NCBI GenBank assembly: GCA_001044335.1
Contig: CP011001.1
Span: forward strand, 1,178,001 to 1,242,000
Direction of reading: 5' to 3'
Length of the DNA stretch: 64,000 bases
DNA from: Methylophilales bacterium MBRSF5
GTDB taxonomy: Bacteria > Pseudomonadota > Gammaproteobacteria > Burkholderiales > Methylophilaceae
Shown: positions 27,683 to 64,000 of the stretch, in pieces
Layout of the letters: every line of letters starts with the position of its first letter
How positions within the stretch are numbered: position 1 is the first letter of the stretch
The notes under the pieces: generated by a model
Told to the model about the DNA's origin: nothing
Seen by the model: only the letters and a program-made list of their open reading frames with translations
The model's database searches: none
Position numbers and translations under genes: made by a program

Positions 27683-27691
27683 GTTTAAATA

Positions 27692-27756
27692 TTTGCTGGG
27701 GGTCAATTTTATATTGTGAGAAACACCCTTGGAACCTGATTCGGATAATACCGACG

Positions 27757-27769
<13 letters not shown>
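27692..27769 (+). ncRNA. TPP riboswitch aptamer (THI element)
   Basis: The conserved thi-box segments are all present: GCTGGGGGTC at the 5' side, GTGAGAAACACCCTT, GGAACCTGATTCGGATAAT and the closing ACCGACGTAGGGAATGC. P1 forms between TTTGC (27692-27696) and GCAAA (27765-27769). It binds thiamine pyrophosphate and turns off thiC when the cofactor is plentiful. Confidence 0.97.
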
Positions 27770-29695
<1,926 letters not shown>

Positions 29696-50453: not shown

Positions 50454-50960
50454 GTGATAAAACAAGGTTTTTCATTAATCGAATTATTAGTGGTTGTTGC
50501 AATAATTGGTATCCTGGCAGCCATTGGCACGATCGGTTATCAAAACTACATTGACGGCACACGCATCTCCTCAGCAGACCAAGAAAGAAATCAGAAAGCA
50601 CGAAAATTAGAAAATGACATCATTGGTGCACAAACTGGAGTTATATCAAATTACTCAAGTTGTTTTGATTTGATAGATGATCAAATTTCAGATTTTAATT
50701 CCAGTGGTTCAGATAACCCTTATGACACTAATTACACTGGACAAATTTTTGTAAACGGACATACAGCACCAAAAAATGGATCTAATCAGATTGAGTTAGA
50801 TGCAGGCCAACAGATTATTATGTGCAGTACGCCATGCGCACCTCCAGAAAGTGTTGAAATTAGAATGTGTTCATGCACAGATCAAAATGGATGTTTAACT
50901 TCGTTAGGTTCACCAGCTACTGTAGCTTGTCCTACCCCTGCATCAGTTTCATCATGTTAA
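50454..50960 (+). CDS. Type IV pilin-like protein, cysteine-rich
   Basis: The GTG start at 50454 follows a strong GGAGGAGG site. The 168-residue protein has a five-residue leader ending in Gly, then F-S-L-I-E and a 20-residue hydrophobic helix: the prepilin-peptidase site and glutamate-5 of type IV pilins. The globular part is unusual in having eight cysteines (70, 124, 128, 139, 141, 147, 159, 168), most in the last 50 residues. Its first ~37 residues nearly match the pilin at 55315, but the rest is unrelated. With the two secreted proteins downstream it is probably a minor pilin carrying a tip factor. Confidence 0.85.
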   Translation: MIKQGFSLIELLVVVAIIGILAAIGTIGYQNYIDGTRISSADQERNQKARKLENDIIGAQTGVISNYSSCFDLIDDQISDFNSSGSDNPYDTNYTGQIFVNGHTAPKNGSNQIELDAGQQIIMCSTPCAPPESVEIRMCSCTDQNGCLTSLGSPATVACPTPASVSSC

Positions 50961-50987
50961 CTTTTATGAAAAATGAGGTATCAAATA

Positions 50988-52565
50988 ATGAAACACATAA
51001 AACAACTTAAATATATTGCTCTAGGGTCAGCACTCTTCGCAGGCTTTCATTTGGCAGCAGATATTGAGGAAGACAGAACCAATACAATCGGAAGTGGAGA
51101 TTGGCAAACTGGACTTATCACCCCAAGTGATTCTGACACAGATTCAGCTTGTAATGTCGTAGCTGGCATACCCTTTTCATGTACGCTTCCTGCATCCGGC
51201 GGGGGCGGTTCAGTAACCTGTTCGCCAGTCTCTATTCCTGGCGGATTAACACTATCATCAGGTTGTGTATTAGCTGGCTCATCACCGACTGACTTTTCTG
51301 TTGACGTTCAATTTGATGACGGGGTCAGTGATCCTGTTACAAAAACCATTAATCTCACAGCAGGTCCAAACCAAAGTCCAACTGCAAGTGATCCTAGCGG
51401 ATGTCCGGCAGCGAAAACTGGTGTTGCATGGTCATGTAATTTAGCTGGTTCAGCCACAGATCCAGAAGGTCAAGCAATGACCTACTCATTAGGCGCAAGT
51501 GCACCATCGTGGGCGTCGATCAATGGTGGGGTTTTATCAGGAACTCCGACTGCCTCTGGCTCAGTAGGCGTTCCATACGATATAAGTGATGGTGTAAATA
51601 TTATTTCATACACATACAACATTAATATTGCCGTAGGAGCAGCTGATGCTCTTGAGGGTGATGACCCAGTATCAATAGCAACTTTAGAAGATGCTGGTGT
51701 ATCATCGGCAATGACAACAGCGCTAAATTCAAATACATGTGGCACAACAGGAGATCAAAGTTGTCTTACTGCGTTTAATAATCAAAGATCATCAACAGCT
51801 TGTTCACTCGCCGGCGGCTCATCTGCAACTACATCACAGATGGAAGATTATGTTGAATGTGTTGTCTTCGAAACATATACAGCAGATGCCTCTGGTGTTT
51901 CTACTACTCCTGCGGCAGAATCTGCAGCATCTGGATGCGGTCAATCTGTAAACGTACCTATGCCACCCATGTGTGGTTATAGTGCATGGACATGTCCAAT
52001 TACTAATTTACCGACCGGATGGGTTAACAATGGTCAGACTGTTTCTATCCCAGATAGTGCAACTACTCAAAATATAACTCTGAACGTTGAAATGAGATTA
52101 GCAAGTTGGACAAATCATCTGATCAAGACCGTATCACAACCGGTGAATGTATCAGCAGCCATTTCTGGAGCCTCAAATGGATATAAGCTTTACCATGGTG
52201 GACAGACTGGTAAAAGTGGAGCATCGAACAGACGGTGGAACGTTTGGCAGGCCTGGGAATACTGCCAAGATATTGGTGGTAATTTAGCTACTATCAGCGA
52301 AGCTGAAAGTTCAGGTGTTTTGGGTACCGCTACTAGAGTTTATGGCCAGAAAGAGGGGCAAACTACCAAGCCTGCTAAACCATTTTGGAATGCTAGCCGT
52401 TATGGTACAGACTACAAAGCTGCCAAAGAAAATGGCGCATTAAGGTATATTCAAAGTCCTGGATCATACATATGTACAGCAATGAATAGATACACATGTG
52501 GAGGCAATGCTGCAACCACCAAGTACTTTGTATGTAAAGATCTTCCCTCATGCCCAGCAGACTAA
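50988..52565 (+). CDS. Secreted Ig-like / C-type-lectin-like protein, candidate pilus adhesin
   Basis: I start at the ATG at 50988 because GAGGT precedes it by 8 bases; an in-frame ATG at 50973 would add five residues. The 525-residue product has a signal peptide to about residue 24 and two putative Ig-like domains (about 55-125 and 130-217, the second with the SWASINGGVLSGTPTASG pattern). A cysteine-rich, Thr/Ser-rich middle follows. The C-terminal ~120 residues resemble a C-type-lectin fold (AWEYCQDIGGNLATISEAES and closing YFVCK). It probably binds a surface or glycan at the pilus tip, by analogy with PilY/Msh adhesins. Confidence 0.7.
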   Translation: MKHIKQLKYIALGSALFAGFHLAADIEEDRTNTIGSGDWQTGLITPSDSDTDSACNVVAGIPFSCTLPASGGGGSVTCSPVSIPGGLTLSSGCVLAGSSPTDFSVDVQFDDGVSDPVTKTINLTAGPNQSPTASDPSGCPAAKTGVAWSCNLAGSATDPEGQAMTYSLGASAPSWASINGGVLSGTPTASGSVGVPYDISDGVNIISYTYNINIAVGAADALEGDDPVSIATLEDAGVSSAMTTALNSNTCGTTGDQSCLTAFNNQRSSTACSLAGGSSATTSQMEDYVECVVFETYTADASGVSTTPAAESAASGCGQSVNVPMPPMCGYSAWTCPITNLPTGWVNNGQTVSIPDSATTQNITLNVEMRLASWTNHLIKTVSQPVNVSAAISGASNGYKLYHGGQTGKSGASNRRWNVWQAWEYCQDIGGNLATISEAESSGVLGTATRVYGQKEGQTTKPAKPFWNASRYGTDYKAAKENGALRYIQSPGSYICTAMNRYTCGGNAATTKYFVCKDLPSCPAD

Positions 52566-52901: not shown

Positions 52902-53672
52902 ATGAAAAATCAATTTAAAATTTTAGGTTGCTCTGGAAGTGTTGGTAAGGGGGGTTACACCACCTGTTTTCAAATCAATGATGATATTTTAATTGACGCA
53001 GGATCTGGATTGTTGGACCAAGGCTTTGAAGAACTAAAAAAAATAAATAAGATTTTTTTAACGCACAGTCATCTTGATCATATTTTGGGTATCCCTTTAC
53101 TGGCTGATTTGGTCGGCAACTATCGTGAACAGCCGATTGAGGTCTATGGGAGCAATGACACCATTATTAACGTTAAAAAAAATATTCTTAATGGTGTGAT
53201 CTGGCCTGATTTTTCTGTAATACCAACCGAATCAAAGCCTTACCTGAAGTTTTCTAATATCAGTACTGAGATACCTAAAGTTGTTGATGAATTTAGGATA
53301 ACCCCCTTTTATGTTAATCACACGGTACGTTGCTTTGGCTATAAGATCGAATCCCGGGACCAGGCCATTATTTTTTCAGGCGACACGGGCCCATCAGATA
53401 ATTTAATTCGTATGATTAATGAGACCAAGAATTTGGCCGCAGTCATTATTGATGTCTCATTCCAAGATAAGCGACAAAATATTGCTGACCTGTCCAGACA
53501 TTTTACCCCCCAGAGTTTAGCGAAGGCAGTGACGGCCATTGAAAAAAAACAAACGATTTACATCACCCACCAAAAACCAGGATGTGAAGAAAATATCCTA
53601 AAAGAAATTAAAGATCATAAGATCAAACAGGACATCAAAATCCTCGAAAGAGGTCTAGTGATTAATTTCTAG
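52902..53672 (+). CDS. Metallo-beta-lactamase-fold phosphodiesterase, class-II cyclic-nucleotide PDE/RNase Z-like
   Basis: The 256-residue protein begins KILGCSGSVGKGGYTTCF and has the metal motif THSHLDH (H55, H57, D59, H60), the later FSGDTGPS metal site and a C-terminal THQKPG. The layout matches the class-II 3',5'-cyclic-nucleotide phosphodiesterase / RNase Z branch and it lacks a signal peptide. A -10-like TATAGT (52880) lies 17 bases before the ATG. It converges on the SpoIIE phosphatase with an 11-base overlap. Cyclic AMP as substrate is a family-level inference. Confidence 0.75.
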   Translation: MKNQFKILGCSGSVGKGGYTTCFQINDDILIDAGSGLLDQGFEELKKINKIFLTHSHLDHILGIPLLADLVGNYREQPIEVYGSNDTIINVKKNILNGVIWPDFSVIPTESKPYLKFSNISTEIPKVVDEFRITPFYVNHTVRCFGYKIESRDQAIIFSGDTGPSDNLIRMINETKNLAAVIIDVSFQDKRQNIADLSRHFTPQSLAKAVTAIEKKQTIYITHQKPGCEENILKEIKDHKIKQDIKILERGLVINF

Positions 53673-54888
53673 GTAGTATCACCAACAATGTGGCATCGTC
53701 ATGCAGCCGGATGACATCCTTTTGCAAGAACCGGTTGATTTGTTCATATCGCTGCGGTGCGGTCATCCCTGATTGATTTTTTGCCATCTGGGCCAATCCC
53801 TTAGACTCAATCTCCTTGCCATTTATTTTTGCCTCGGTAATGCCATCTGTCGAGACATAAATAGCTGACCCCTCATGAATGGTGATATCTTGATTGGATG
53901 GATTGAATGCCTCGTCATTCAGAATGCCTACCGGTGGAGCGCTGGTCCCATATTCACGATACTTTCCATCTGCATAATGCAAGACCGGATTATGGCCACA
54001 ATTGACAAACTCCAGATCATTGCCATCCAACCAACCCATGACGCACGTTGCAAAACGGTCATCCGTGCCCTGGCCATAAATCTCAAAGTTCATCTTCTTA
54101 GCCATCTGGCTGGCTGACAACTCCTCTTTGGCAAAGAGTCTAAAGAGGGACATGCATCGCGACATGAGAATCGTGGCCGGTACCCCCTTGCCTGAGACAT
54201 CTCCTTGTATAAAAGCGATATTGCCATTCACCTCAAAGTAGTCAATAAAGTCTCCGGAGAGTTCTCGATAAGGTTTTACCCCGCCGGAGATAAAATCATA
54301 GGCATCCACCTTTGGGAATAAGACCGATTGGGCCACCTTGGCATCGGCAATATCTTTTTCGATCAGTTTATCTAAGACAGCTTTTTCGGTGAGCTCAATA
54401 TTTTTTAATATAATGCCGAGGTTCAATGAGAGCAATTCAAAGTATTCTAAATCCGCTGTGTCAAAAAATTGTTGGTCTGTATTTTTATTTAAGGCCTGCA
54501 GACAGCCAAACACATGTCCATCGAACAGGACCGGGACCGTCATCAGAGAGCGGGTCACAAAGCCGGTCTTCTGATCTACTTTATTTAAATGGGCGGCGTC
54601 TTTTTTGACATCCTCAATCAGCTTGCTTGTTTGATTGGTAAACACCTCCCCGACAATTCCTTGGTCTGATTTGATCGACAGTCCGGTGATGTCCACAGGG
54701 CCGATACAGGATTGGCACTCCAATTTATCTACCTCTTTTTTATAAATAAAAAATGAGGCGGCCTCGGCATGCATGAGCGTAGAAATTTCAGCTAATACAT
54801 TTTTTAATGTCTCCGAGATATTAGAACTCACAGAAAACTGGTTCAACATCTGCGTCAGTATCGCAATTAAATTTTTATTGTCATTCAT
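53662..54888 (-). CDS. GAF-SpoIIE (PP2C-type) serine phosphatase
   Basis: The 408-residue cytosolic protein has an N-terminal GAF sensor domain (about 20-165), a short helical linker, and a SpoIIE/RsbU-type PP2C domain (about 188-406). The metal aspartates are D213 (SGDFID), D230 (GDVSGKG) and D348 (STDGITEA). Such phosphatases remove phosphate from STAS-domain antagonists. Its start overlaps the HATPase gene by 4 bases, and a STAS gene lies about 900 bases upstream in the same operon. Together they make a complete partner-switching set. The GAF ligand is unknown. Confidence 0.88.
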   Translation of the reverse strand: MNDNKNLIAILTQMLNQFSVSSNISETLKNVLAEISTLMHAEAASFFIYKKEVDKLECQSCIGPVDITGLSIKSDQGIVGEVFTNQTSKLIEDVKKDAAHLNKVDQKTGFVTRSLMTVPVLFDGHVFGCLQALNKNTDQQFFDTADLEYFELLSLNLGIILKNIELTEKAVLDKLIEKDIADAKVAQSVLFPKVDAYDFISGGVKPYRELSGDFIDYFEVNGNIAFIQGDVSGKGVPATILMSRCMSLFRLFAKEELSASQMAKKMNFEIYGQGTDDRFATCVMGWLDGNDLEFVNCGHNPVLHYADGKYREYGTSAPPVGILNDEAFNPSNQDITIHEGSAIYVSTDGITEAKINGKEIESKGLAQMAKNQSGMTAPQRYEQINRFLQKDVIRLHDDATLLVILPRN

Positions 54889-55262
54889 GCGCTAAACTCC
54901 ATCTGGGTCAGGTGCCCATGCCCGGTATATTGAATGGTAAATGATTGGGCCACTTTCTTGATCAACCTCAGGCCCATGCCACCCTCCTCAGAGGGTTCAT
55001 GCTCTTGATCTAAAAAACTCAGGTCCATTGGCTTGGCGTAGTCGGTAATATCGAACCTCAGTCCATGTTCAGTATTTGTGATGGTCACATCAATCTGCAT
55101 CCCATCCGCCAGTTGGTAGGCATGTCGATAAATATTTTGTAACACCTCATTGACCGCAATGATGACCTCATCGGTGATCGCAGGAAAGTGATCTTTATTT
55201 TCTTGCAACCAGCGCAAGCTGTGGTGCAATAATTTATGTTCGGTCAAGAATGTCTTATTCAT
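54885..55262 (-). CDS. HATPase anti-sigma-factor-type serine kinase (RsbW-like)
   Basis: The protein is about 125 residues and consists of one GHKL ATP-binding domain: N-box NEVLQNIYRHAY, G1 box DITDYAKP and G2 box GGMGLRLIKK. It lacks a sensor or dimerisation domain, as in RsbW/SpoIIAB kinases that phosphorylate STAS proteins. The ATG at 55262 lies right after the T run of the pilin terminator. An in-frame GTG at 55274 sits inside the hairpin. Neither has a visible Shine-Dalgarno, so expression probably depends on readthrough. Confidence 0.83.
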   Translation of the reverse strand: MNKTFLTEHKLLHHSLRWLQENKDHFPAITDEVIIAVNEVLQNIYRHAYQLADGMQIDVTITNTEHGLRFDITDYAKPMDLSFLDQEHEPSEEGGMGLRLIKKVAQSFTIQYTGHGHLTQMEFSA

Positions 55263-55292
55263 AAAAAAGGCCACATATTGATATGCGGCCTT
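55263..55292 (-). terminator. Internal terminator between pilin and HATPase genes
   Basis: On the minus strand AAGGCCGCATA pairs with TATGTGGCCTT (one G-U pair) around a TCAA loop and is followed by six T. It lies 22 bases after the pilin stop and directly before the HATPase start codon. It should keep most transcripts from reaching the kinase and phosphatase genes. Confidence 0.85.
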
Positions 55293-55314
55293 CTAGATAA
55301 TTTAATAAATTAAA

Positions 55315-55764
55315 TTATGATGGATCATCAAGGTTAAGTGATGATTCAATATCGACTGTTGCGATATCGGCAGCATCAGTACCTGTACAAAATGAAATTG
55401 TACCAGCTGCTGCCATCCAAGGTTGGCCTAGGTCAGCGCCATCTGCTGTACAGTCAATCGCTGTAGTGCCAACTGCAGCATATGCCGCATTGCTAAATGG
55501 ATTCTCCATGCTTGATGCTGCGATGATTAAGTCTGCACATGCATTTTCAGTAGTACCATCAGCACATGTTGTGGTGTCAAGGCCAGCCGAGATAGCTAAA
55601 TCCTCAGCAGCAATAGCTTTTGCAACTGTTTCCATGTTTGTTTCAGCGACTCTGGCACGAGTTCCGTCAATGTAGTTCTGGTAGCCCACTGTACCTACAG
55701 CCGCCAAAATACCAATGATTGCAACCACAACCAATAACTCAATTAATGAAAAACCTTGTTTCAT
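55315..55764 (-). CDS. Type IV pilin, probable major subunit
   Basis: The start is the ATG at 55764, eight bases after GGAGG; a longer frame upstream runs through the STAS gene and is not real. The 149-residue product has leader MKQG, cleavage before F5, the conserved glutamate (fifth residue of mature pilin) and the hydrophobic helix. A small Ala/Asp-rich globular domain carries cysteines 67, 76, 105 and 126. It is encoded between the STAS gene (16-base gap) and a terminator, which would favour high production. It is exported through the PilB/PilC machinery encoded upstream. Confidence 0.93.
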   Translation of the reverse strand: MKQGFSLIELLVVVAIIGILAAVGTVGYQNYIDGTRARVAETNMETVAKAIAAEDLAISAGLDTTTCADGTTENACADLIIAASSMENPFSNAAYAAVGTTAIDCTADGADLGQPWMAAAGTISFCTGTDAADIATVDIESSLNLDDPS

Positions 55765-55780
55765 GTTTATTTCCTCCAAA

Positions 55781-56440
55781 TTACTCAAAAGTTCCTGGGT
55801 TAAATTCAAAATCATCTGACTTTGAATCGCCAGAATCATTCCCTTCTTTGGAATTGTTACCCGATTCACCAGCCTTGTCAACTGTGCTTGCACCCTCATC
55901 AGCAGGCGTGTCATCAAAACTAATATCAAAGTCATCGCCTGAAGGGGTGTCCTCTGAAAAATCCATCACCATGTCGTCGTCATTTTCTTCTATATTTGCT
56001 TCTGCAGGCTCGTTCAATTGAGGTTCCTCTTCTGACAAGTTAAGCTCTAGATCATCATCCGCAGCGGATAAATCTAACTCGGGAGATTCCTCCACACTGT
56101 TCTCACCTTGGGGATTCTCATCCACCTGTTCTGTTGCTTGCGGAAGCGAGAAGACCGCGCCCAGACCTGCCATGTCGATAATTTTTTTTGCCGAAGCTGA
56201 AATGGATTTGATCTCAAAAACCATCTGGTTCTCTTCCGCAACCCTTTTTGCAAATAACAATAAGGCCACCGCAGATGAGTCCATGTACTCGGTCTCACCG
56301 CACTCGATGACTAACTTTTTAAAGCCTGCCTTAGGCTCATTCTTAATTAAATCTTTGATCGAAGTCGTTTCCGATAAGTCCACGGTCCCTGAGAGACTTA
56401 AGATAAAAGATTCACCATTTGTTTGTAGATCGTATGCCAT
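55781..56440 (-). CDS. STAS-domain antagonist with a long acidic tail
   Basis: Residues 1-~100 form a STAS (anti-sigma-antagonist) domain with the phosphorylatable serine region YMDSSAVALL (S55/S56). Residues ~105-219 are almost entirely Asp, Glu, Ser, Asn and Pro and are likely disordered. The tail contains short repeated acidic patches (DDLELNLSEEE, DFDISFDD). It is the substrate expected for the HATPase kinase and SpoIIE phosphatase encoded downstream. Placed between pilT and the pilin gene, it may act on pilus output rather than on a sigma factor. The acidic tail is not typical of SpoIIAA/RsbV. Confidence 0.85.
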   Translation of the reverse strand: MAYDLQTNGESFILSLSGTVDLSETTSIKDLIKNEPKAGFKKLVIECGETEYMDSSAVALLLFAKRVAEENQMVFEIKSISASAKKIIDMAGLGAVFSLPQATEQVDENPQGENSVEESPELDLSAADDDLELNLSEEEPQLNEPAEANIEENDDDMVMDFSEDTPSGDDFDISFDDTPADEGASTVDKAGESGNNSKEGNDSGDSKSDDFEFNPGTFE

Positions 56441-56451
56441 GACAGTATCCC

Positions 56452-57465
56452 TTAATCAATTGACTCAATGAGCCCCTTACCCAACAAGATTTCTTTGTAT
56501 TTCTCCATTAACATCATACCTTCTTTGGCCCCGGTCTGCATCATGTTGGCAATCTGTGAAATTTTCTTCTCTCGGATCAGGTTAGCCACTGCCGGTGTAT
56601 TCACCATCACCTCAAAGGCTCCAATTCGACCGCCGCCTTTTTTCTTCATCAGTTGTTGGGTCATGACCAGCCTCAAAGAGAGGGATAATTGTGCCTGAGC
56701 TTTACTCTGTTCTTCAGGGGGAAACGCGTCCACCAGACGGTTGATCGTTTCAGGGGCCCCGTTGGTATGGAGCGTACCAAAAACCAGGTGGCCTGTTTCT
56801 GCGGCCGTCAGCGCCATGGATATGGTTTCATAGTCCCTTAGCTCACCCATCAGAATCACATCTGGATCCTGACGAAGGGCACCCTTCAAAGCCGATGCAA
56901 AGGTGTCGGTATCCTTTCCCACCTCTCGTTGCACAATTAACGACTTTTGGTTTTGGTGGGTGAACTCAATCGGATCCTCTACAGTGATAATATTTTCAGC
57001 CCTCGTTCTATTAATCTTATCGATCATGGCTGCGAGCGAGGTCGACTTACCCGAGCCTGTCGCCCCGGTCACCAGCACTAGGCCGTCTCTGAGTTCTAGA
57101 GCCTGGTGCACTGCAGGGGGCAGGCCCAGCATGTCAATGTTAGGCACCTCGGACACAATCACCCTCAAGACTAGGCCGGTGCCTGTTATTGTTCCTAAGG
57201 CCGAAGCACGAAATCGGGTATCCTTAATCACAAAGGCAAAGTCTAAGTCCTTATGTTCACGGAACTTTTGGTACCAGTCCTCAGGCACCTCTGAGGTGAT
57301 CAAGTCTTGCAGGTCATCCTCGGTGATCATCTTATCTTCATATGTTTTTAGTTCCCCGTGCACCCTACAGGTCAAAGGCTTGCCTGCATGTAAATGAAAA
57401 TCGGAAACCCTTTCTGCTTGCAAGGTGTCGTAAATATAAGAATATAAGGGATTACTGTCACTCAT
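56452..57465 (-). CDS. pilT: Type IV pilus retraction ATPase
   Basis: PilT drives pilus disassembly and twitching. The 337-residue hexameric ATPase has Walker A GATGSGKS (134-141), the acidic box ITVEDPIEFTH, Walker B DVILMGELRD, the His box TGHLVFGTLHT and, at residues 292-299, AVANLIRE. The last is the retraction motif close to the PilT consensus AIRNLIRE. PilU is an alternative. It lies 20 bases after pilC and 11 before the STAS gene. Confidence 0.93.
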   Translation of the reverse strand: MSDSNPLYSYIYDTLQAERVSDFHLHAGKPLTCRVHGELKTYEDKMITEDDLQDLITSEVPEDWYQKFREHKDLDFAFVIKDTRFRASALGTITGTGLVLRVIVSEVPNIDMLGLPPAVHQALELRDGLVLVTGATGSGKSTSLAAMIDKINRTRAENIITVEDPIEFTHQNQKSLIVQREVGKDTDTFASALKGALRQDPDVILMGELRDYETISMALTAAETGHLVFGTLHTNGAPETINRLVDAFPPEEQSKAQAQLSLSLRLVMTQQLMKKKGGGRIGAFEVMVNTPAVANLIREKKISQIANMMQTGAKEGMMLMEKYKEILLGKGLIESID

Positions 57466-57485: not shown

Positions 57486-58715
57486 TTATGCAAACGCATC
57501 GCCCGCACTAAATATTGGTAAGTATAAGGCTACCACCATGACGCCAATCATGCCACCAACAAACACAATCATGACCGGCTCGATGATCGTGGTTAAGCCA
57601 GAGACCACCGCCTCAAACTCTTCTTGATAATAACGGGCAATGGACGCTAACATCTCATCCATATTACCGGTGCGTTCACCGACCTTGATGAGCTGGGATA
57701 ACTCCAATGGGAATACCGTCTCTTCAGCAAATAAGTCTGATAAATCAGACCCCGTGACCACTCGATCATTAATTCTTTCCATGGCCTCAATAAATTTTGT
57801 ATTGGTCGTGACATTCGTGGCCACCTTTAATATTTCTTCCACGCCAATCCCAGCGGCAAATAAATTAGCCATCAATAAAGAGAGTCGTGCCACAGTTGAT
57901 TTGATGATGATGTTTCCAAACAAGGGTAACTTCAGCATCATGCCGTGCACACTGGCACGGTAGGGATACGCATGCTTCATCAACATGCGATGGGTAAAAA
58001 TGATACCGACAATGGTGGCAATTAAACTCATAAAATTACCGCCGTCCATGATCCAGTCACTGGCATCGATAATCATTTGTGTCGGAGCTGGTAATTCAAC
58101 TCCCATGCCAGCATACATCTCCTGGAAAGTCGGTACGACAAAAATCAGCATCGCCCAGACGATGAGTATGGTGACCACAATCAAGGTTACCGGATAGAAT
58201 AAGGCACTCTTAATTCCGGATCGAATTTTCTCCATCCGCTCTTGGCCATCGACAATACGATCTAAGAACTGGTCTAATTTACCAGAAATTTCTCCAGCCT
58301 CGATCATGTTACAAAAAATACTATCAAAGCAAGAGGGGTGTTTACGGACCACCTCCGAGAACGGCATCCCCACATTGATGTCCTTAATCATCTCGTTAAT
58401 GTACTTTCTAAAGACAACATTTTGGGTTTGTGAGCTGATTAAGTTTAATGAATCTAGTATGGTTAAGCCACTGCGCACCATGGTCGCGAGCTTCTTGGTA
58501 AACACCAAGACATCCTTATTAGGAATTTTACCAAAGGGCCCCCAGGTAATTGCGGTTAACGTGGGATCCTTTTTTGGTTTAAGCTCTTTGGCTCTTATCT
58601 TTGTGTATTTTCTTGCTTTGAGTGTTGTTAAGGCGTCATTACGATTTCCTGCTTTGATCGATCCGTTAATCGATCTCCCTTTTTTATCTTTTGCCTTATA
58701 GCTAAATTCTTTCAT
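57486..58715 (-). CDS. pilC: Type IV pilus inner-membrane platform protein
   Basis: PilC is the polytopic platform on which PilB and PilT work. The 409-residue protein has two T2SSF cytoplasmic domains and three membrane helices. It begins FSYKAKDKKGRSINGSI and has LATMVRSGLTILDSLNL and ISQLIKVGERTGNMDEML-type segments. It shares one base with the pilB stop and precedes pilT. Confidence 0.95.
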   Translation of the reverse strand: MKEFSYKAKDKKGRSINGSIKAGNRNDALTTLKARKYTKIRAKELKPKKDPTLTAITWGPFGKIPNKDVLVFTKKLATMVRSGLTILDSLNLISSQTQNVVFRKYINEMIKDINVGMPFSEVVRKHPSCFDSIFCNMIEAGEISGKLDQFLDRIVDGQERMEKIRSGIKSALFYPVTLIVVTILIVWAMLIFVVPTFQEMYAGMGVELPAPTQMIIDASDWIMDGGNFMSLIATIVGIIFTHRMLMKHAYPYRASVHGMMLKLPLFGNIIIKSTVARLSLLMANLFAAGIGVEEILKVATNVTTNTKFIEAMERINDRVVTGSDLSDLFAEETVFPLELSQLIKVGERTGNMDEMLASIARYYQEEFEAVVSGLTTIIEPVMIVFVGGMIGVMVVALYLPIFSAGDAFA

Positions 58716-60493
58716 TAATTTTCAAGCTGAAGCGTATTCGCGTATTCCTCAATGGACAAAATACCTGTTTTCACAAAGTCCCGGCCTATTTCCTGCATGG
58801 TCCTGAAGCCATCTGTTTTCGCTGCCTTTTCAATTTCCTCCACCGACTTATTGTTCAGGATGGCGATCTCCATCTCCTTGGTCATTCTTAAAACTTCGTA
58901 GATACCTTGTCGACCCTTCAGTCCTGAGCCACCGCATACTTTGCACCCTTTGCCTCGCTGAGCTGTAAACGATTCAAGCTCACTTTCTTTAAAACCCATC
59001 TTAACTAATTCTTCGGGAGTGGCGCGAGGGTCATCCTCTAGACACTCTTGACAGCTTTTTCGCGCTAAGCGTTGCGCAACCACAACCGATAACGCACTCG
59101 CGATCATAAAGTTAGGAACGCCCATGTTCTGAATACGAGTAATCGTCGCAATGGCATCATTGGTGTGCAGTGTTGAGAGCAATAAATGTCCCGTCAATGC
59201 AGCCTTGATGGCAATGTCAATGGTTTCCTGATCTCGGATCTCACCCACCAAAATCACCTCGGGATCTTGTCGTAAAAAAGCGCGGAGGATAGAGCTAAAG
59301 GTGAGACCAATTTTCTCGTTGGCCTGCACCTGACCAGCGCCCTCTAAATAATATTCCACGGGGTCTTCTGCTGTCAGGATACAGGTATCAGGCTTATTAA
59401 TTTCTTGCAGTGCGCCATAGAGAGTGGTTGTTTTACCTGAACCTGTGGGACCTGTAACCAAAACCATCCCTTGCGGAGCGTTAATGGCATCAATGATTTT
59501 ATTGTAGTCGTCTGGATCAAAACCCAGCTTATCTAGAGACAGGGCGGGGTTACCTGCCAAGATACGCATCACGATCCGTTCACCATTTTTTGTTGGCATG
59601 ATATTGAAACGGAAATCGATATCGTCCTTTCCACCCATCGGATCCTTAATGGTGATGGCCCCGTCTTGCGGCAATCGTCTCTCAGAGATATCACAGTCCG
59701 CGAGAATTTTAAAACGAGTGATCACCCCTGCGTAATGTTTAAATAGGTACTTGCTGTATTCTTCAATCACCTGCATGGAGCCATCCCGTCGCATGCGCAC
59801 CTGGGCATAATCACGGAAGCATTCGATATGAATATCTGACGTCCCAGAGATCACCGATTCGTTTAAGATTTGATCACAAAAATCAATCACCATGTCTGGG
59901 TTCCCTAGTGGGAAATTATCTCGATACCTCATCCCCTTGGGGATGTTTAATTTTGTTTTTTGAATAACCCGAGGCGCCTCATCCTGTTTCTTCTCAACCA
60001 CCTTTTTCTTTGGTGCTCGGGCTTGGGATTCTGCTGCTAAAAAGACGTCACTCACTGCAGGGTAGGTCAGCATCTTTTCGAAATGGGAGAGGCTCGTAAT
60101 TTCGAAAACGACATTTAAACTAGATTGGGTCTTGATGGATGAAGATAAAGAAATGTTTTTTGGATCCAAAATTAAGACGTGTAGGACATCATCTTCAATC
60201 TTATAAGGAAGTAAAATATTTTCAATTATCGTAGAGCTATTGATGCTGCGGACTGCTTCACTCTGACATTCTTCGGGACTCGGAAAGGTCCTGGTTAAGC
60301 TAACACTCTTAGCAAAGGTATTGACCAGCCAGGATTCATCAATCGAGCCATCATTGATGAGCATTTTAAGTTTTTCATTCCATTCGAGTTTAGAGAAAAA
60401 GTCAGAATTAATTTTACTTTCTTCAAGGCGGCCTGCATTGATAATGGCCTTGATTGCTTTCTCACTTGTGGTTGGGGAATAATTGACCAGCAT
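58715..60493 (-). CDS. pilB: Type IV pilus assembly ATPase
   Basis: PilB powers pilus extension. The 592-residue protein has a degenerate N-terminal MshEN-like region, then the GspE/PilB core. The core holds Walker A GPTGSGKT (348-355), the Asp box TAEDPVEYY, Walker B EVILVGEIRD (412-421), the His box TGHLLLSTLHT, and the tetracysteine zinc site C481-x2-C484...C517-x2-C520. It ends one base into pilC and begins 3 bases after the PilP-like gene. Confidence 0.96.
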   Translation of the reverse strand: MLVNYSPTTSEKAIKAIINAGRLEESKINSDFFSKLEWNEKLKMLINDGSIDESWLVNTFAKSVSLTRTFPSPEECQSEAVRSINSSTIIENILLPYKIEDDVLHVLILDPKNISLSSSIKTQSSLNVVFEITSLSHFEKMLTYPAVSDVFLAAESQARAPKKKVVEKKQDEAPRVIQKTKLNIPKGMRYRDNFPLGNPDMVIDFCDQILNESVISGTSDIHIECFRDYAQVRMRRDGSMQVIEEYSKYLFKHYAGVITRFKILADCDISERRLPQDGAITIKDPMGGKDDIDFRFNIMPTKNGERIVMRILAGNPALSLDKLGFDPDDYNKIIDAINAPQGMVLVTGPTGSGKTTTLYGALQEINKPDTCILTAEDPVEYYLEGAGQVQANEKIGLTFSSILRAFLRQDPEVILVGEIRDQETIDIAIKAALTGHLLLSTLHTNDAIATITRIQNMGVPNFMIASALSVVVAQRLARKSCQECLEDDPRATPEELVKMGFKESELESFTAQRGKGCKVCGGSGLKGRQGIYEVLRMTKEMEIAILNNKSVEEIEKAAKTDGFRTMQEIGRDFVKTGILSIEEYANTLQLEN

Positions 60494-60496
60494 AAA

Positions 60497-61432
60497 TTAT
60501 TGTGTGGCTGGTGTGAGTGGTGCTGGTGAAGCTGAACTACTGCCCTCAATATTTATTGGGAATGTCGAGACCGGAATGAACATGGCATTGCCACTCAACC
60601 CAGTCACGCTGATACCATTGTCATTAATATTTGTGATCACAAATCCATGGGGGCCTAAAAGCTGGTCAACGGTGACCTCTAAAGTCATTTTTTTTAATTT
60701 TTCTAAGCTAAAGTCGTATGGTTTTTCTTTGAAGTCCAGTAATGCGAACTGAGACAGGCCAACAGTGGCTGTATTTTGAGTAGCCATTTCTTCTTGCTCC
60801 GAGACAAAGTGTTGATGGACTTGTGAGCAGTTCATGTTCTTATTCTTGGTTAATGCAGCCAAATAATGACAATGCGCGACTGTAATTTCTTTCGTCCGGA
60901 ATGGGCCGTACTCCAGATCATAGTTGCTCAACGTATTTTTTTCATTGAATCGAATGATGATATACCGGTTCAGGTCATCGTTATAATTGACCATTAAATT
61001 TTTTGCAACGGTACGGATTTCACCCAAATCTTGTTTCGATTGAATTTTGACGTAGTAGCCTTGGTGTTCATCACCAAAAAAATCATCGGGGTTCAGTTCT
61101 AGTATCTTCGGCATCTGTAATTCTTCGTCTGCAACGATGCCCACTACTCGGTAATACCGCAGATCCTGTAAATGCCTCAGATCATCAATTCTGCTCGAAT
61201 CACTAGCTGATTCTTCACCAAAGGTGGCGTATGCTGGAGATCTTGTCACCCCTCTTTTAAATGGGTCAGTGTATATTTGCTGATTCTCAATATCTAATTC
61301 AATCACTGAATCATCAACCATATCAGTTTGAGGTAAGTCTTCTGGAAGCATTCCATCAGCAAATGATGTAAAGACAAAGAATGTACCAATTAATGTTATG
61401 AAACATTTATTAAGTGTCTGTATCTTAATCAT
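60497..61432 (-). CDS. Periplasmic pilus assembly protein, PilP-like (tentative)
   Basis: The 311-residue protein has a signal peptide (about 1-25), a low-complexity acidic stretch, and a DPF motif (YTDPFKRG) before a beta-rich domain (LRYYRVVGIVAD, GYYVKIQSKQDLGEI), resembling PilP. The C-terminal ~100 residues extend beyond normal PilP length, with a second beta-rich segment (LLGPHGFVITNINDNG). Its place between the PilO-like gene and pilB supports a pilus alignment-complex role. No secretin gene (pilQ) is in view. Confidence 0.55.
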   Translation of the reverse strand: MIKIQTLNKCFITLIGTFFVFTSFADGMLPEDLPQTDMVDDSVIELDIENQQIYTDPFKRGVTRSPAYATFGEESASDSSRIDDLRHLQDLRYYRVVGIVADEELQMPKILELNPDDFFGDEHQGYYVKIQSKQDLGEIRTVAKNLMVNYNDDLNRYIIIRFNEKNTLSNYDLEYGPFRTKEITVAHCHYLAALTKNKNMNCSQVHQHFVSEQEEMATQNTATVGLSQFALLDFKEKPYDFSLEKLKKMTLEVTVDQLLGPHGFVITNINDNGISVTGLSGNAMFIPVSTFPINIEGSSSASPAPLTPATQ

Positions 61433-61436
61433 TTAT

Positions 61437-62492
61437 CTATCCTTTCCTCTTAGTAGATTGTATAGGATTATTTTCCGTGAAAAAAGGAATGTCGTAAATT
61501 ACTCTAAATTGGATTTCATCTTGATTGCTTTCAGTCACAATCTCTTCTACAGGAATAATTAGATAAGGGTACTGTTTAAGAACGTCCTGTCTCGCTTTTA
61601 AGTAATCCAGATACTGTCCTTTAAGTTGGAAGTGATAGGTCATGAATGACACATTTTTCGGTAAGCTCTTCATTAATTTTTGTTTACGTTGCGCTTCTTT
61701 ATTTTTGATCACATCCATAATTGTTTTATAATTATCCTTTAGAGCATTGGCCGCCTGGGTAACTTGTGGTTTTTCTTTCGCCTTAGGCTTTTTCTTATTA
61801 TCTTTTTTCTTACCTTTTCGCATTTTTTTACCAGTTAACTTTTCGGCTACATTTTTTTTATCTCTTTTAGCTTTAGGGGTATCGTCTTCTATTGGTACAA
61901 CAATATTTGAAAAGATGGTCGTATCGGCATCCGGTTTTTGTAATGGTGGAATCGAGAAAGTCACAGGAGATAATGATTTTTTAATTTGTATTTCTTGTTT
62001 CACAATTTTTAAATCCCCATTTTCCAATAACATCGCTACTTGATTGACCAAATCATCTGCTCCCGACTGGGATGGAATCTTATTCAGTTGATCTTGGATA
62101 TTCTGTTTTTTATTTAAGATATCTTGTTGGATTTTTTGTGCATTTTTTTCGATGTTTTTAATTTCAGCTAACACCTTGGGAAGCTTTTGTTTACTTTTTT
62201 TCACTTTCTCAGAGTATGTCTGATAACTACCCCAGCCGTTATTTGCAATAAAAAAGATAATAGCGCCTAGAACTATATATCCTACCGACCAGATGATCAT
62301 CTTGTTCTGTGCAGCAAATTTGCGATATTTGATTGCTGAAAATTTTTGCTTACTCCCTAAATAGCGAACAGCCAATCTATTTTCAGCAAAATCATTAGCA
62401 CTTACTTTATCTTGTGTAGATATCTCTTGAGCTTTGATCTCATCCAATAATTTTTGGGCTCTTTTTGATAGTTTTTTCTTAAAGATTGACAT
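61437..62492 (-). CDS. Inner-membrane pilus alignment protein, PilO-like with a Lys-rich insertion
   Basis: The 351-residue protein has a cytoplasmic N-terminal ~60 residues, one membrane helix (65-83) and a coiled coil (90-140). A ferredoxin-like PilO-type domain is split by a strongly basic low-complexity stretch (about 207-242, mostly Lys). The C-terminal half (FMTYHFQLKGQYLDYLKARQDVL...) is the classic PilO/PilN beta-alpha pattern. It shares one base with the PilM/N-like gene stop and starts the PilO-PilP-PilB series. Confidence 0.65.
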   Translation of the reverse strand: MSIFKKKLSKRAQKLLDEIKAQEISTQDKVSANDFAENRLAVRYLGSKQKFSAIKYRKFAAQNKMIIWSVGYIVLGAIIFFIANNGWGSYQTYSEKVKKSKQKLPKVLAEIKNIEKNAQKIQQDILNKKQNIQDQLNKIPSQSGADDLVNQVAMLLENGDLKIVKQEIQIKKSLSPVTFSIPPLQKPDADTTIFSNIVVPIEDDTPKAKRDKKNVAEKLTGKKMRKGKKKDNKKKPKAKEKPQVTQAANALKDNYKTIMDVIKNKEAQRKQKLMKSLPKNVSFMTYHFQLKGQYLDYLKARQDVLKQYPYLIIPVEEIVTESNQDEIQFRVIYDIPFFTENNPIQSTKRKG

Positions 62493-64000
62493 TAGGTTTT
62501 AATCACCCCCACCAATTCAAAAAAGTTCATCGAGCGATCTTTTCTTCTAAAGGAATCAATTTTAATATTTTCAAAATTGTTATCCTGCATAAATGTATTG
62601 TAAAAACTATTGACGCTCATGACGTTCAGACTATTACCAAAAATTTGAAAGGTATTGTCTCTGATGATTACTCGATCCAATTCAACATCCTTAGGAATAT
62701 CTCGAATTAACTTTTCAAACAGCTTCTGATTGGTTTGGCCATTCGAAAGGTCAGCGATAATTTCATACTCCGCCTCTTTTTGATTAATCTCTGCCTTACC
62801 TGACTTGATTGCCTGTTTCAGCCTTTCTAATTTTTTTTCAGACACGACTAGCTGTTTTTCTTGCTGGTTACCTCCCATATTTAGAGTAAACAGGCTTGCG
62901 CTAAAAATGAGTGCGCCGATGAGAAGCAGCCCAAATAAATAAAATCCTTTTTTGATTGCTGCCTCTTTTTCAAAGTTACTTTTGATGAAAGCAGCTTTTT
63001 CATGAAAGTTCATTATTGGAGCAGAGGTGACTTTATTCGGAATGGCAATTTCTGAAAAATATTTTAGCGAGTAATTGCCCAGTGCAGGAATAAATCTTGA
63101 ACCACCATAAAAATTGATATCTCCTTGGTCGTTACTCATGAATGAGTTTTTATCGAGAGGCTTTTGCACAGAGATATATTCAAACTGCTGGTTTATAGAT
63201 ATGATGTTAACAACCCTAAAATTCTCACGCAGTAAGCCAAAAAACGGCAATTCGTGGTCATAATCGCTGATAAAGTACATATTCTCAAACTTTAGAACTT
63301 TTGCCTCTTCTAAGAGATAATTTGTTGCTGTTTTTAGTGCGGTTGAGATTCGACCTACGACCTCATTCCAAAATGTTTTGTTTTCTTCATTAATTTCAGG
63401 AATATCATCTAACAATGACTCATCTAATTCATCAATATTCACTTGGGCGACGTCGACCTGCTCGGCATTGACATAAATGATTCGATTGTTGCCTTTACTT
63501 AGATGAAAAATCGCAAAAGGCCTCTCTCTTTGAACTCGGCTTAGGCGTGACTCAATAATTTTAATCAAAGCCTGATCCTCTGCGATATAACCCACTGGAT
63601 ATAGATTGGACTGTAGGGATAGATTTTGGTATAAGCGGGTCAATAATCGATCTACGGCAACATACATCAGATTTGAAGAATTTTCCTCGGCGTCAGTTGT
63701 AAGCAAACTCGAACGAATTTCCGCCAACTTCAAATCAGCCAAGTCTGGATCGTGTTCCTTCCAAAAATCATACGGGGTTGCCTTAGTCAGCGTATTAAAT
63801 TCTTTTTTATCGGCCTTTACATCCAGATTCATCGGAATGGTAATGCTCTTCATGCGGCTTTTTTGGTGGGGGATTATCCATGTGACTAACTCGCCCTCCA
63901 TTTTGTATTGCCTCACCATGCGGGAAATAAAAGAACTTAAAAACTCAATCTCAGGATTGATATTGTTTGGATCAATCACTTTCGGTAATTTCCACTCCAT
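62492..64000 (-). CDS. PilM/PilN-like fusion (may be incomplete at the window edge)
   Basis: The 502 visible residues begin with an in-frame ATG that is exactly the last three bases of the window, so the true start may lie outside. Residues ~1-350 resemble the later half of an actin-like PilM/GspL domain. A membrane helix follows (about 366-388), then a coiled coil and a periplasmic PilN-type domain (LFEKLIRDIPKDVELDRVIIRD). PilM and PilN are usually separate; here they are one chain, GspL-like. It is followed by the PilO-like gene. Confidence 0.65.
   Translation of the reverse strand: MEWKLPKVIDPNNINPEIEFLSSFISRMVRQYKMEGELVTWIIPHQKSRMKSITIPMNLDVKADKKEFNTLTKATPYDFWKEHDPDLADLKLAEIRSSLLTTDAEENSSNLMYVAVDRLLTRLYQNLSLQSNLYPVGYIAEDQALIKIIESRLSRVQRERPFAIFHLSKGNNRIIYVNAEQVDVAQVNIDELDESLLDDIPEINEENKTFWNEVVGRISTALKTATNYLLEEAKVLKFENMYFISDYDHELPFFGLLRENFRVVNIISINQQFEYISVQKPLDKNSFMSNDQGDINFYGGSRFIPALGNYSLKYFSEIAIPNKVTSAPIMNFHEKAAFIKSNFEKEAAIKKGFYLFGLLLIGALIFSASLFTLNMGGNQQEKQLVVSEKKLERLKQAIKSGKAEINQKEAEYEIIADLSNGQTNQKLFEKLIRDIPKDVELDRVIIRDNTFQIFGNSLNVMSVNSFYNTFMQDNNFENIKIDSFRRKDRSMNFFELVGVIKT

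Follow-up and report, generated by a model that had tools for sequence, protein, structure and literature searches.

A predicted partner-switching module strictly linked to one rare type IV pilus island in Methylophilaceae, with a probable CHASE2-cyclase input

Introduction

In Nostoc punctiforme, hormogonium development and motility have been linked to the HmpU-HmpV-HmpW system, which combines a PP2C phosphatase, a STAS protein as output and a HATPase kinase; in the parts of the published accounts cited here, HmpV is presumed to be the output and its target is not known (PMC8256260, PMC6495340). We describe a locus with the same kinds of protein in Methylophilales bacterium MBRSF5 (family Methylophilaceae). 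It lies in a stretch of 64,000 nucleotides of contig CP011001.1 (positions 1,178,001 to 1,242,000), called the window below, in which positions 53662-56440 encode a complete-looking partner-switching module with predicted activities: a STAS protein, an RsbW/SpoIIAB-type HATPase and a GAF-SpoIIE phosphatase, alongside the genes of a type IV pilus. Unlike the hmp locus, which belongs to another phylum, the genes here stand between pilT and a pilin gene, and a GAF phosphatase linked to a cyclase takes the place of HmpU; the two systems are compared by their descriptions.

Other known systems resemble this locus in part. SpoIIAA-SpoIIAB-SpoIIE and RsbV-RsbW-RsbU of Bacillus share its domains, the N box of the kinase, the aspartate set of the phosphatase and the serine motif of the STAS protein, which also has a structural match to SpoIIAA, but the island described here has no cognate sigma factor, its STAS protein carries an acidic tail and its input is through a GAF or CHASE2 domain. 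SiaABCD of Pseudomonas aeruginosa, as portrayed in the sections cited, puts a kinase, a phosphatase and a STAS-type target to a use that does not involve sigma factors (PMC9239204, PMC7647112); the partner there is a diguanylate cyclase, and we saw none in the stretches read here. Similarly, SypA/SypE of Vibrio fischeri and BtrV/BtrW of Bordetella appear, in the excerpt cited, as STAS or kinase proteins with a surface-structure or secretion output (PMC8256260), although the organelles and the input differ. A cluster in Campylobacterota, as far as the cited part of its description goes, brings together CHASE2-cyclase, FecR, TPR and phosphodiesterase genes (PMC9239204). In the present island, too, FecR and TPR genes adjoin the CHASE2-cyclase, but a pilus and a partner switch share the locus with them, and a phosphodiesterase candidate stands beside the phosphatase at the far island end. 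Finally, the GAF domains of Lcd1 (Leptospira) and CyaB2 (Anabaena) are the best structural-database matches of the phosphatase's GAF domain, but their output domains differ and ligand binding here is predicted. In the open PMC literature we found no partner switch in a pilus locus that joins cyclic adenosine monophosphate (cAMP), a GAF domain and a PP2C phosphatase, although Fig. 4B of PMC9239204 may show a similar idea. New here are the strict linkage to one pilus island, the hairpin between the pilin gene and the kinase and phosphatase genes, and a candidate cAMP input that is suggested by a sensor swap.

Results

A complete-looking module behind pilB, pilC and pilT

The sequence-only reading had placed the STAS, pilin, HATPase and GAF-SpoIIE genes together on the strand of pilB-pilC-pilT, and the open reading frames and Pfam matches bear this out, with all four on the minus strand directly behind pilT (Table 1). 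PilT and STAS are separated by 11 bp and STAS and pilin by 16 bp, and HATPase and SpoIIE overlap by 4 bp. The STAS protein (Pfam 4.1e-10, with both STAS and STAS_2 over their cut-offs) finds TM1442 and SpoIIAA in the PDB and scores 52.0 bits against TIGR00377, just below the cut-off of 53.45. Its D54-S55-S56 motif, with a putatively phosphorylatable serine, is invariant in all five genomes that carry the module, and the tail of 114 residues has 40 Asp/Glu and 3 Lys/Arg. Across relatives (window 55784-56125, L021:8828-8962 and L022:1717-1779) the tails are very different in length and have acidic-hydrophobic runs in common, such as DISLDNLFD and DFALDDLFN; PGTFE or PGSF closes the tail in the window's genome (G000), in its nearest relative among the genomes compared, KB13 (G001), and in G088.

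In the kinase candidate, the N box residues E39 and N43 together with D74, G94 and G97 are invariant in all five aligned proteins. HATPase_c_2 is over its cut-off in every HATPase put through the Pfam scan (those of G000, G009, G088 and G091, with G001 compared by alignment only), as in a GHKL kinase with an intact ATP site and no HisKA domain. Five places in the G000 genome match HATPase_c_2 at E<=0.1, and the module's alone passes the curated cut-off. Against curated RsbW models, the protein scores 25.9 bits (cut-off 145) and 19.5 bits (cut-off 155.05), which leaves it outside the RsbW equivalogs, and as a query by itself it gave no sequence match in the PDB. The phosphatase is over the SpoIIE cut-off and has its set of metal-binding aspartates (D213, D230, D348 and D398) invariant in six of six aligned proteins. 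The roles of these key residues in kinase, STAS protein and phosphatase are those of their families, and every catalytic activity in the circuit is predicted on that footing. A defence-system origin of the module was rejected, as PADLOC gave 0 matches for the three proteins.

The pilus genes lie upstream. PilT scores 409.7 bits against TIGR01420 (the PilT/PilU subfamily; cut-off 319.1), as a type IVa PilT does, and PilB reaches 513.4 bits against the PilB model (cut-off 675.65). The PilM/N-like protein has a PilN match at 5e-06, with a secretin gene further upstream, and the PilO-like and PilP-like proteins, which have no Pfam match, are named by position only.

Linkage to one rare pilus type

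The module is linked strictly to one rare pilus island, in two genera. The genomes compared were 187 of the family, 31 of the genus and 399 of the order, with G000 itself complete in one contig of 1.353 Mb. Strong relatives of the STAS protein (E 9.8e-137 to 4.7e-25) occur in five of the 187 family genomes, G000, G001 and G009 of the window's genus and G088 and G091 of the other, and the PilM/N-like pilus protein is found in the same five out of 187. PilT, STAS, pilin and HATPase are contiguous in four of them (G000, G001, G088 and G091). In G009, contig ends cut the locus between STAS and pilin: one contig stops within the STAS gene, and the pilin, HATPase, SpoIIE and MBL genes are on another. 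SpoIIE follows HATPase directly in G000, G001 and G009. The conserved gene order that the sequence-only reading looked for is thus kept from PilT to HATPase, but for SpoIIE it holds only in the window's genus.

Weak STAS matches, with E from 3.6e-8 to 9.2e-4, turned up in eleven more family genomes. An order-wide STAS profile search at E<=1e-3 found matches in 80 genomes out of 399, none of them above 38.1 bits outside G000 and G001. Among the other 78 of these, 28 STAS places were read, and neither they nor the 11 weak family loci had a match to PilB, PilC, PilT, pilin or HATPase within ~1.5 kb. A contig scan, with a reach of close relatives only, returned four loci, all in Methylophilaceae. 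A chance gene neighbourhood was rejected on the order conservation and the strict linkage. The PilT of G091 (L022:2103-3097) is split over two open reading frames in different frames, through a sequencing error or a broken gene.

A hairpin between pilin and HATPase

Between pilin and HATPase lies a terminator-like hairpin with a folding energy of -17.8 kcal/mol (z -5.2). All five genomes have it, at energies of -17.8 to -19.9 kcal/mol and with z between -5.1 and -8.9; in four a T-run stands behind it, and in G000, G001 and G091 only a few bases lie between this T-run and the HATPase ATG. A consensus terminator scan did not list it, and the evidence for the hairpin is thus its folding and its conservation. 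Because the GTG at 55274 given in the open reading frame list sits within the hairpin, the probable start codon of HATPase is the ATG at 55262. The sequence-only reading had proposed a complete partner switch in one operon; the complete-looking switch stands, but the single operon is doubtful, since the hairpin parts pilin from HATPase. The arrangement suggests that pilin would be made in excess, with kinase and phosphatase reached by read-through.

A variable island between thiD and priA

In G000 the interval between thiD and priA is 27,990 bp (G000 1228373-1256363; window 50373 to L018:10364). In the module-free genomes G013, G004 and G007 the order is dsbA-argS-priA-thiD-hemL-gltB, with a priA-thiD gap of ~310-340 bp in all three read, and seven island proteins that we tried had no match at this empty site. 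Outside the island, G000 and G013 agree at 94-97% for gltB, hemL and dsbA, and at 47% for thiD, 63% for priA and 77% for argS; between G000 and KB13 the flanks agree at 93% (thiD), 97% (priA) and 96% (argS). Flanks that are divergent from G013 and alike in KB13 fit an exchange in which the neighbouring genes moved along with the island, through gain or loss. An incomplete type IV pilus cluster is mentioned for 'Ca. M. planktonicus' ZE-M8 in the part of PMC10872708 cited; the part cited of another paper has planktonic strains losing motility (PMC6794327).

In all, 12 segments were compared between G000 and KB13. HATPase is lowest (40%), followed by the STAS tail (46%) and pilin (51%), and the other nine range from 80 to 98%. 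DNA identity along window 54850-56200 is V-shaped, falling stepwise from ~97% to 48% and then rising to ~80%, and is lowest over the 3' half of the pilin gene and the 5' half of the HATPase gene. Furthermore, the G009 pilin is 71% alike to that of G000 and the KB13 pilin only 51%, though KB13 is nearer elsewhere. Together these comparisons suggest that the pilin region has been exchanged and that HATPase was part of the stretch concerned. Co-adaptation of HATPase with pilin is weakened as an account of its divergence, because hitch-hiking with an exchanged pilin explains it equally well.

A CHASE2-cyclase and a sensor swap

The probable circuit extends ~15-17 kb upstream of the module, past the window edge, to a CHASE2-adenylate cyclase, a probable input that the sequence-only reading overlooked. 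Its PDB matches are led by adenylate cyclases, and its catalytic motifs (at 471, 514 and 595 of the G000 protein) are kept in all three of G000, G001 and G009. The metal-binding aspartate pair, the Lys/Asp pair for the base and the Asn/Arg pair for the transition state are all there, in the roles that they have in class III cyclases. Among the 31 genus genomes, CHASE2-cyclase matches (E<=1e-3) occur only in these three, each time at the island, and the same three have the full-length MBL protein (E<=1.1e-91), of which 11 further genomes have weak partial matches only.

In G091, the slot that holds the CHASE2-cyclase in G000 is occupied by a CHASE2-SpoIIE fusion of 676 residues. The slot, at the opposite island end from HATPase, has priA, minor pilins and genes for TPR and FecR proteins as its neighbours. 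The fusion is 39% alike to the cyclase over ~410 residues in its CHASE2 part and 46% alike to the window's phosphatase in the other. This domain swap suggests that one and the same sensor has a direct line to the phosphatase in the second genus, and in the window's genus produces cAMP next to a phosphatase with a GAF domain. Genes for a FecR, a TPR outer-membrane-like and a FecR-like 210-residue protein (L018:6470-9945) stand beside the CHASE2-cyclase, and FecR and TPR also occur beside the CHASE2-SpoIIE fusion of G091. A TetR-type regulator (L018:5897-6448), possibly a transcriptional regulator of the island, lies between the CHASE2-cyclase and FecR.

Other features of the window

Window 50454-52565, at the island's far end, carries on its plus strand another pilin-like gene and the gene of a 530-residue protein without a Pfam match; the latter has a counterpart in KB13. 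Of the Rfam families, only the thiamine pyrophosphate riboswitch reaches its gathering score in the window (27688-27780, 66.9 bits).

Table 1. Features of the pilus and partner-switch locus. Positions are those of the window unless G000 is named; lengths are in amino acids (aa).
Feature	Position	Strand	Remarks
MBL-fold hydrolase	52902..53672	+	Convergent; PDEase_II 4.4e-11; candidate cyclic-nucleotide phosphodiesterase, RNase Z-like alternative
GAF-SpoIIE (PP2C) phosphatase, 408 aa	53662..54888	-	Pfam GAF 3e-11, SpoIIE 2.1e-33
RsbW/SpoIIAB-type HATPase, 125 aa	54885..about 55262	-	HATPase_c_2 3.7e-16; presumed STAS serine kinase
Hairpin with T-run, terminator-like	55265..55295	-	Between pilin and HATPase; HATPase ATG immediately after
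Type IV pilin, 149 aa	55315..55764	-	GFSLIE prepilin motif; N_methyl 1.1e-07
STAS protein, 219 aa	55781..56440	-	STAS domain residues 1-105, DSS 54-56, acidic tail; presumed switch output
PilT-family retraction ATPase	56452..57465	-	T2SSE; gene directly upstream of STAS
PilC platform protein	57486..58715	-	T2SSF (Pfam)
PilB/MshE-like extension ATPase	58715..60493	-	T2SSE; weak MshEN match
PilP-like, PilO-like and PilM/N-like assembly proteins	60497..64000	-	PilM/N-like protein runs beyond window end
CHASE2-class III adenylate cyclase, 662 aa	G000 1249908-1251893		~15 kb upstream of STAS, beyond window

Discussion

The explanation that we favour, at a probability of roughly one half, is a partner switch that serves a single type IV pilus, with cAMP as its probable driver, and in which the STAS protein acts on a part of the pilus. 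An extracytoplasmic CHASE2 sensor-cyclase would make cAMP, which would alter the activity of the SpoIIE phosphatase by binding to its GAF domain, and the MBL hydrolase beside the phosphatase may end the signal. The phosphatase would strip phosphate from Ser55/56 of the STAS protein, and the HATPase kinase would restore it. In one phosphorylation state the STAS protein would be the output, through its domain and its acidic tail, on a cytoplasmic part of the pilus (PilT, PilB or the PilM/N platform). A pilus target was chosen because the STAS gene stands between pilT and the pilin gene and because STAS proteins serve as output in known systems. We infer the ligand, the direction of the effect and the target. 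In the sequence-only reading, the STAS protein may control pilus extension or retraction, or the expression of pilin.

The sequence-only reading had the GAF domain sense a metabolite, and this may be cAMP, because the island has a CHASE2-cyclase and CHASE2 is fused to the phosphatase elsewhere. In the PDB, the GAF domain finds those of CyaB2 and Lcd1 first and those of phosphodiesterases as well; Lcd1 is referred to, in the portion of PMC11800159 cited, as a cAMP-dependent diguanylate cyclase. Of the motifs D-x-x-T-G-F-x-T and N-K...F...D of cyclic-nucleotide-binding GAF domains, the residues D105, T108, T112, N134, F142 and D146 are kept in four of four proteins, and K135 is absent in G009; the GAF domain of the cyclase-less G030 scores alike. 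Elsewhere in Methylophilaceae, GspE/PilB-like ATPases (L035:1-2049 and L037:1-2196) have an N-terminal GAF domain with the same D-x-x-T-G-F-x-T motif. As for other cAMP receptors, CRP was not found in G000, where the sole PF00027 match is a YihY-like membrane protein (L062:610-1800). This was rejected as a receptor that tracks the cyclase, since all of the 31 genus genomes have it except one, and that one is the island-bearing G009. The YihY-like protein is fused to a cyclic-nucleotide-binding domain, though most genus genomes have no cyclase match.

Several points weigh against the cAMP-driven pilus switch. With regard to the module, a second pilin takes the place of SpoIIE after HATPase in G088 and G091, and no SpoIIE match was found in G088, an assembly that is 85% complete. 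The co-occurrence amounts to few independent events, G000 and G001 being closely related, and contact between the STAS protein and a pilus protein is conjectural. With regard to cAMP, the GAF domain of a G030 SpoIIE protein (29% identical), from a genome with no STAS, PilM/N or cyclase match, gives nearly the same PDB list and matches these cyclic-nucleotide GAF structures as well or better (1ykd at 3.2e-16, against 3.5e-13 for the module GAF), and GAF entries in the PDB are biased to phosphodiesterases. The argument that the domain binds cAMP because it matches cyclic-nucleotide GAF domains is weakened by this control, which leaves the case for cAMP to the co-occurrence, the domain swap and the absence of another receptor that tracks the cyclase. 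Furthermore, the MBL protein scores higher with RNase Z models (81.9 bits) than with cyclic-nucleotide phosphodiesterase (54.8 bits), neither near its cut-off, and a CHASE2-SpoIIE fusion at a contig end in G085 is found in a genome with no STAS or PilM/N match.

A bolder form of the proposal, which we put forward tentatively, is a cAMP-to-pilus route without transcription, CRP or sigma factors: the GAF-PP2C protein would set the state of the STAS protein, which would dock on the pilus motor, and the sister genus would bypass the messenger by fusing sensor and phosphatase.

Among the rivals, a switch that does regulate the pilus, but whose GAF domain senses a redox, nitrogen or carbon metabolite, with the cyclase as an independent passenger, is rather unlikely and survives best. 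It gains from the G030 control, which makes GAF similarity undiagnostic, and from the Campylobacterota CHASE2-cyclase/FecR/TPR cluster, a mobile unit by itself in the part of PMC9239204 cited. The fusions in G091 and G085, however, lead straight from the same CHASE2 sensor into the same phosphatase, and no other cyclic-nucleotide receptor in the genome tracks the cyclase.

In a classical anti-sigma circuit, the HATPase would hold a sigma factor encoded elsewhere, for example the 208-residue protein like extracytoplasmic function (ECF) factors, and would control transcription of pilus genes. The kinase is RsbW-like and G000 has four Sigma70_r2 proteins, two of which, by length, we take to be RpoD and RpoH. 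As the sequence-only reading had noted, there is no sigma gene beside the module, none being among the island open reading frames read. One Sigma70_r2 protein (229 residues) precedes an RseA-like gene, and the ECF-like protein, which has orthologues at 74-88% in the module-free G013, G004 and G029 but only 30% in the module-bearing G009, was rejected as a partner by co-occurrence. We know of no SpoIIAB/RsbW kinase that holds an ECF factor. Given these orthologues in module-free genomes and the RseA-like neighbour, a sigma target for the module is unlikely, and we regard the anti-sigma circuit as improbable.

Still less probable is an arrangement like SiaABCD, in which the STAS protein would control an enzyme of cyclic di-GMP, which would then act on the extension ATPase via MshEN; SiaABCD is itself described as such a pathway in the part of PMC9239204 cited. 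PilB has a weak MshEN match, but at 21.7 bits it is below the cut-off of 23.1, and the stretches of DNA read near the locus showed no GGDEF gene, a genome-wide GGDEF search not having been made. That the STAS protein and kinase have no pilus function, and are a selfish or hitch-hiking cassette linked to an exchangeable pilin, would suit the fall in G000-G001 identity exactly at pilin and HATPase and the rank of HATPase as the least conserved segment, but is very improbable with key residues invariant despite the divergence and the module retained in all five streamlined genomes that keep the pilus.

Switches with a STAS protein as output are known with unassigned targets, as for HmpV and SypA, and the gene neighbourhood here limits the candidates to the ~10 proteins of a pilus machine. 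In addition, the natural sensor swap between cyclase and phosphatase yields a direct prediction for the GAF ligand. The host genomes are of 1.2-1.35 Mb and have shed most regulators. If our favoured explanation is true, these bacteria would tie cAMP to pili without CRP, and would possess a self-contained circuit for the control of their pili.

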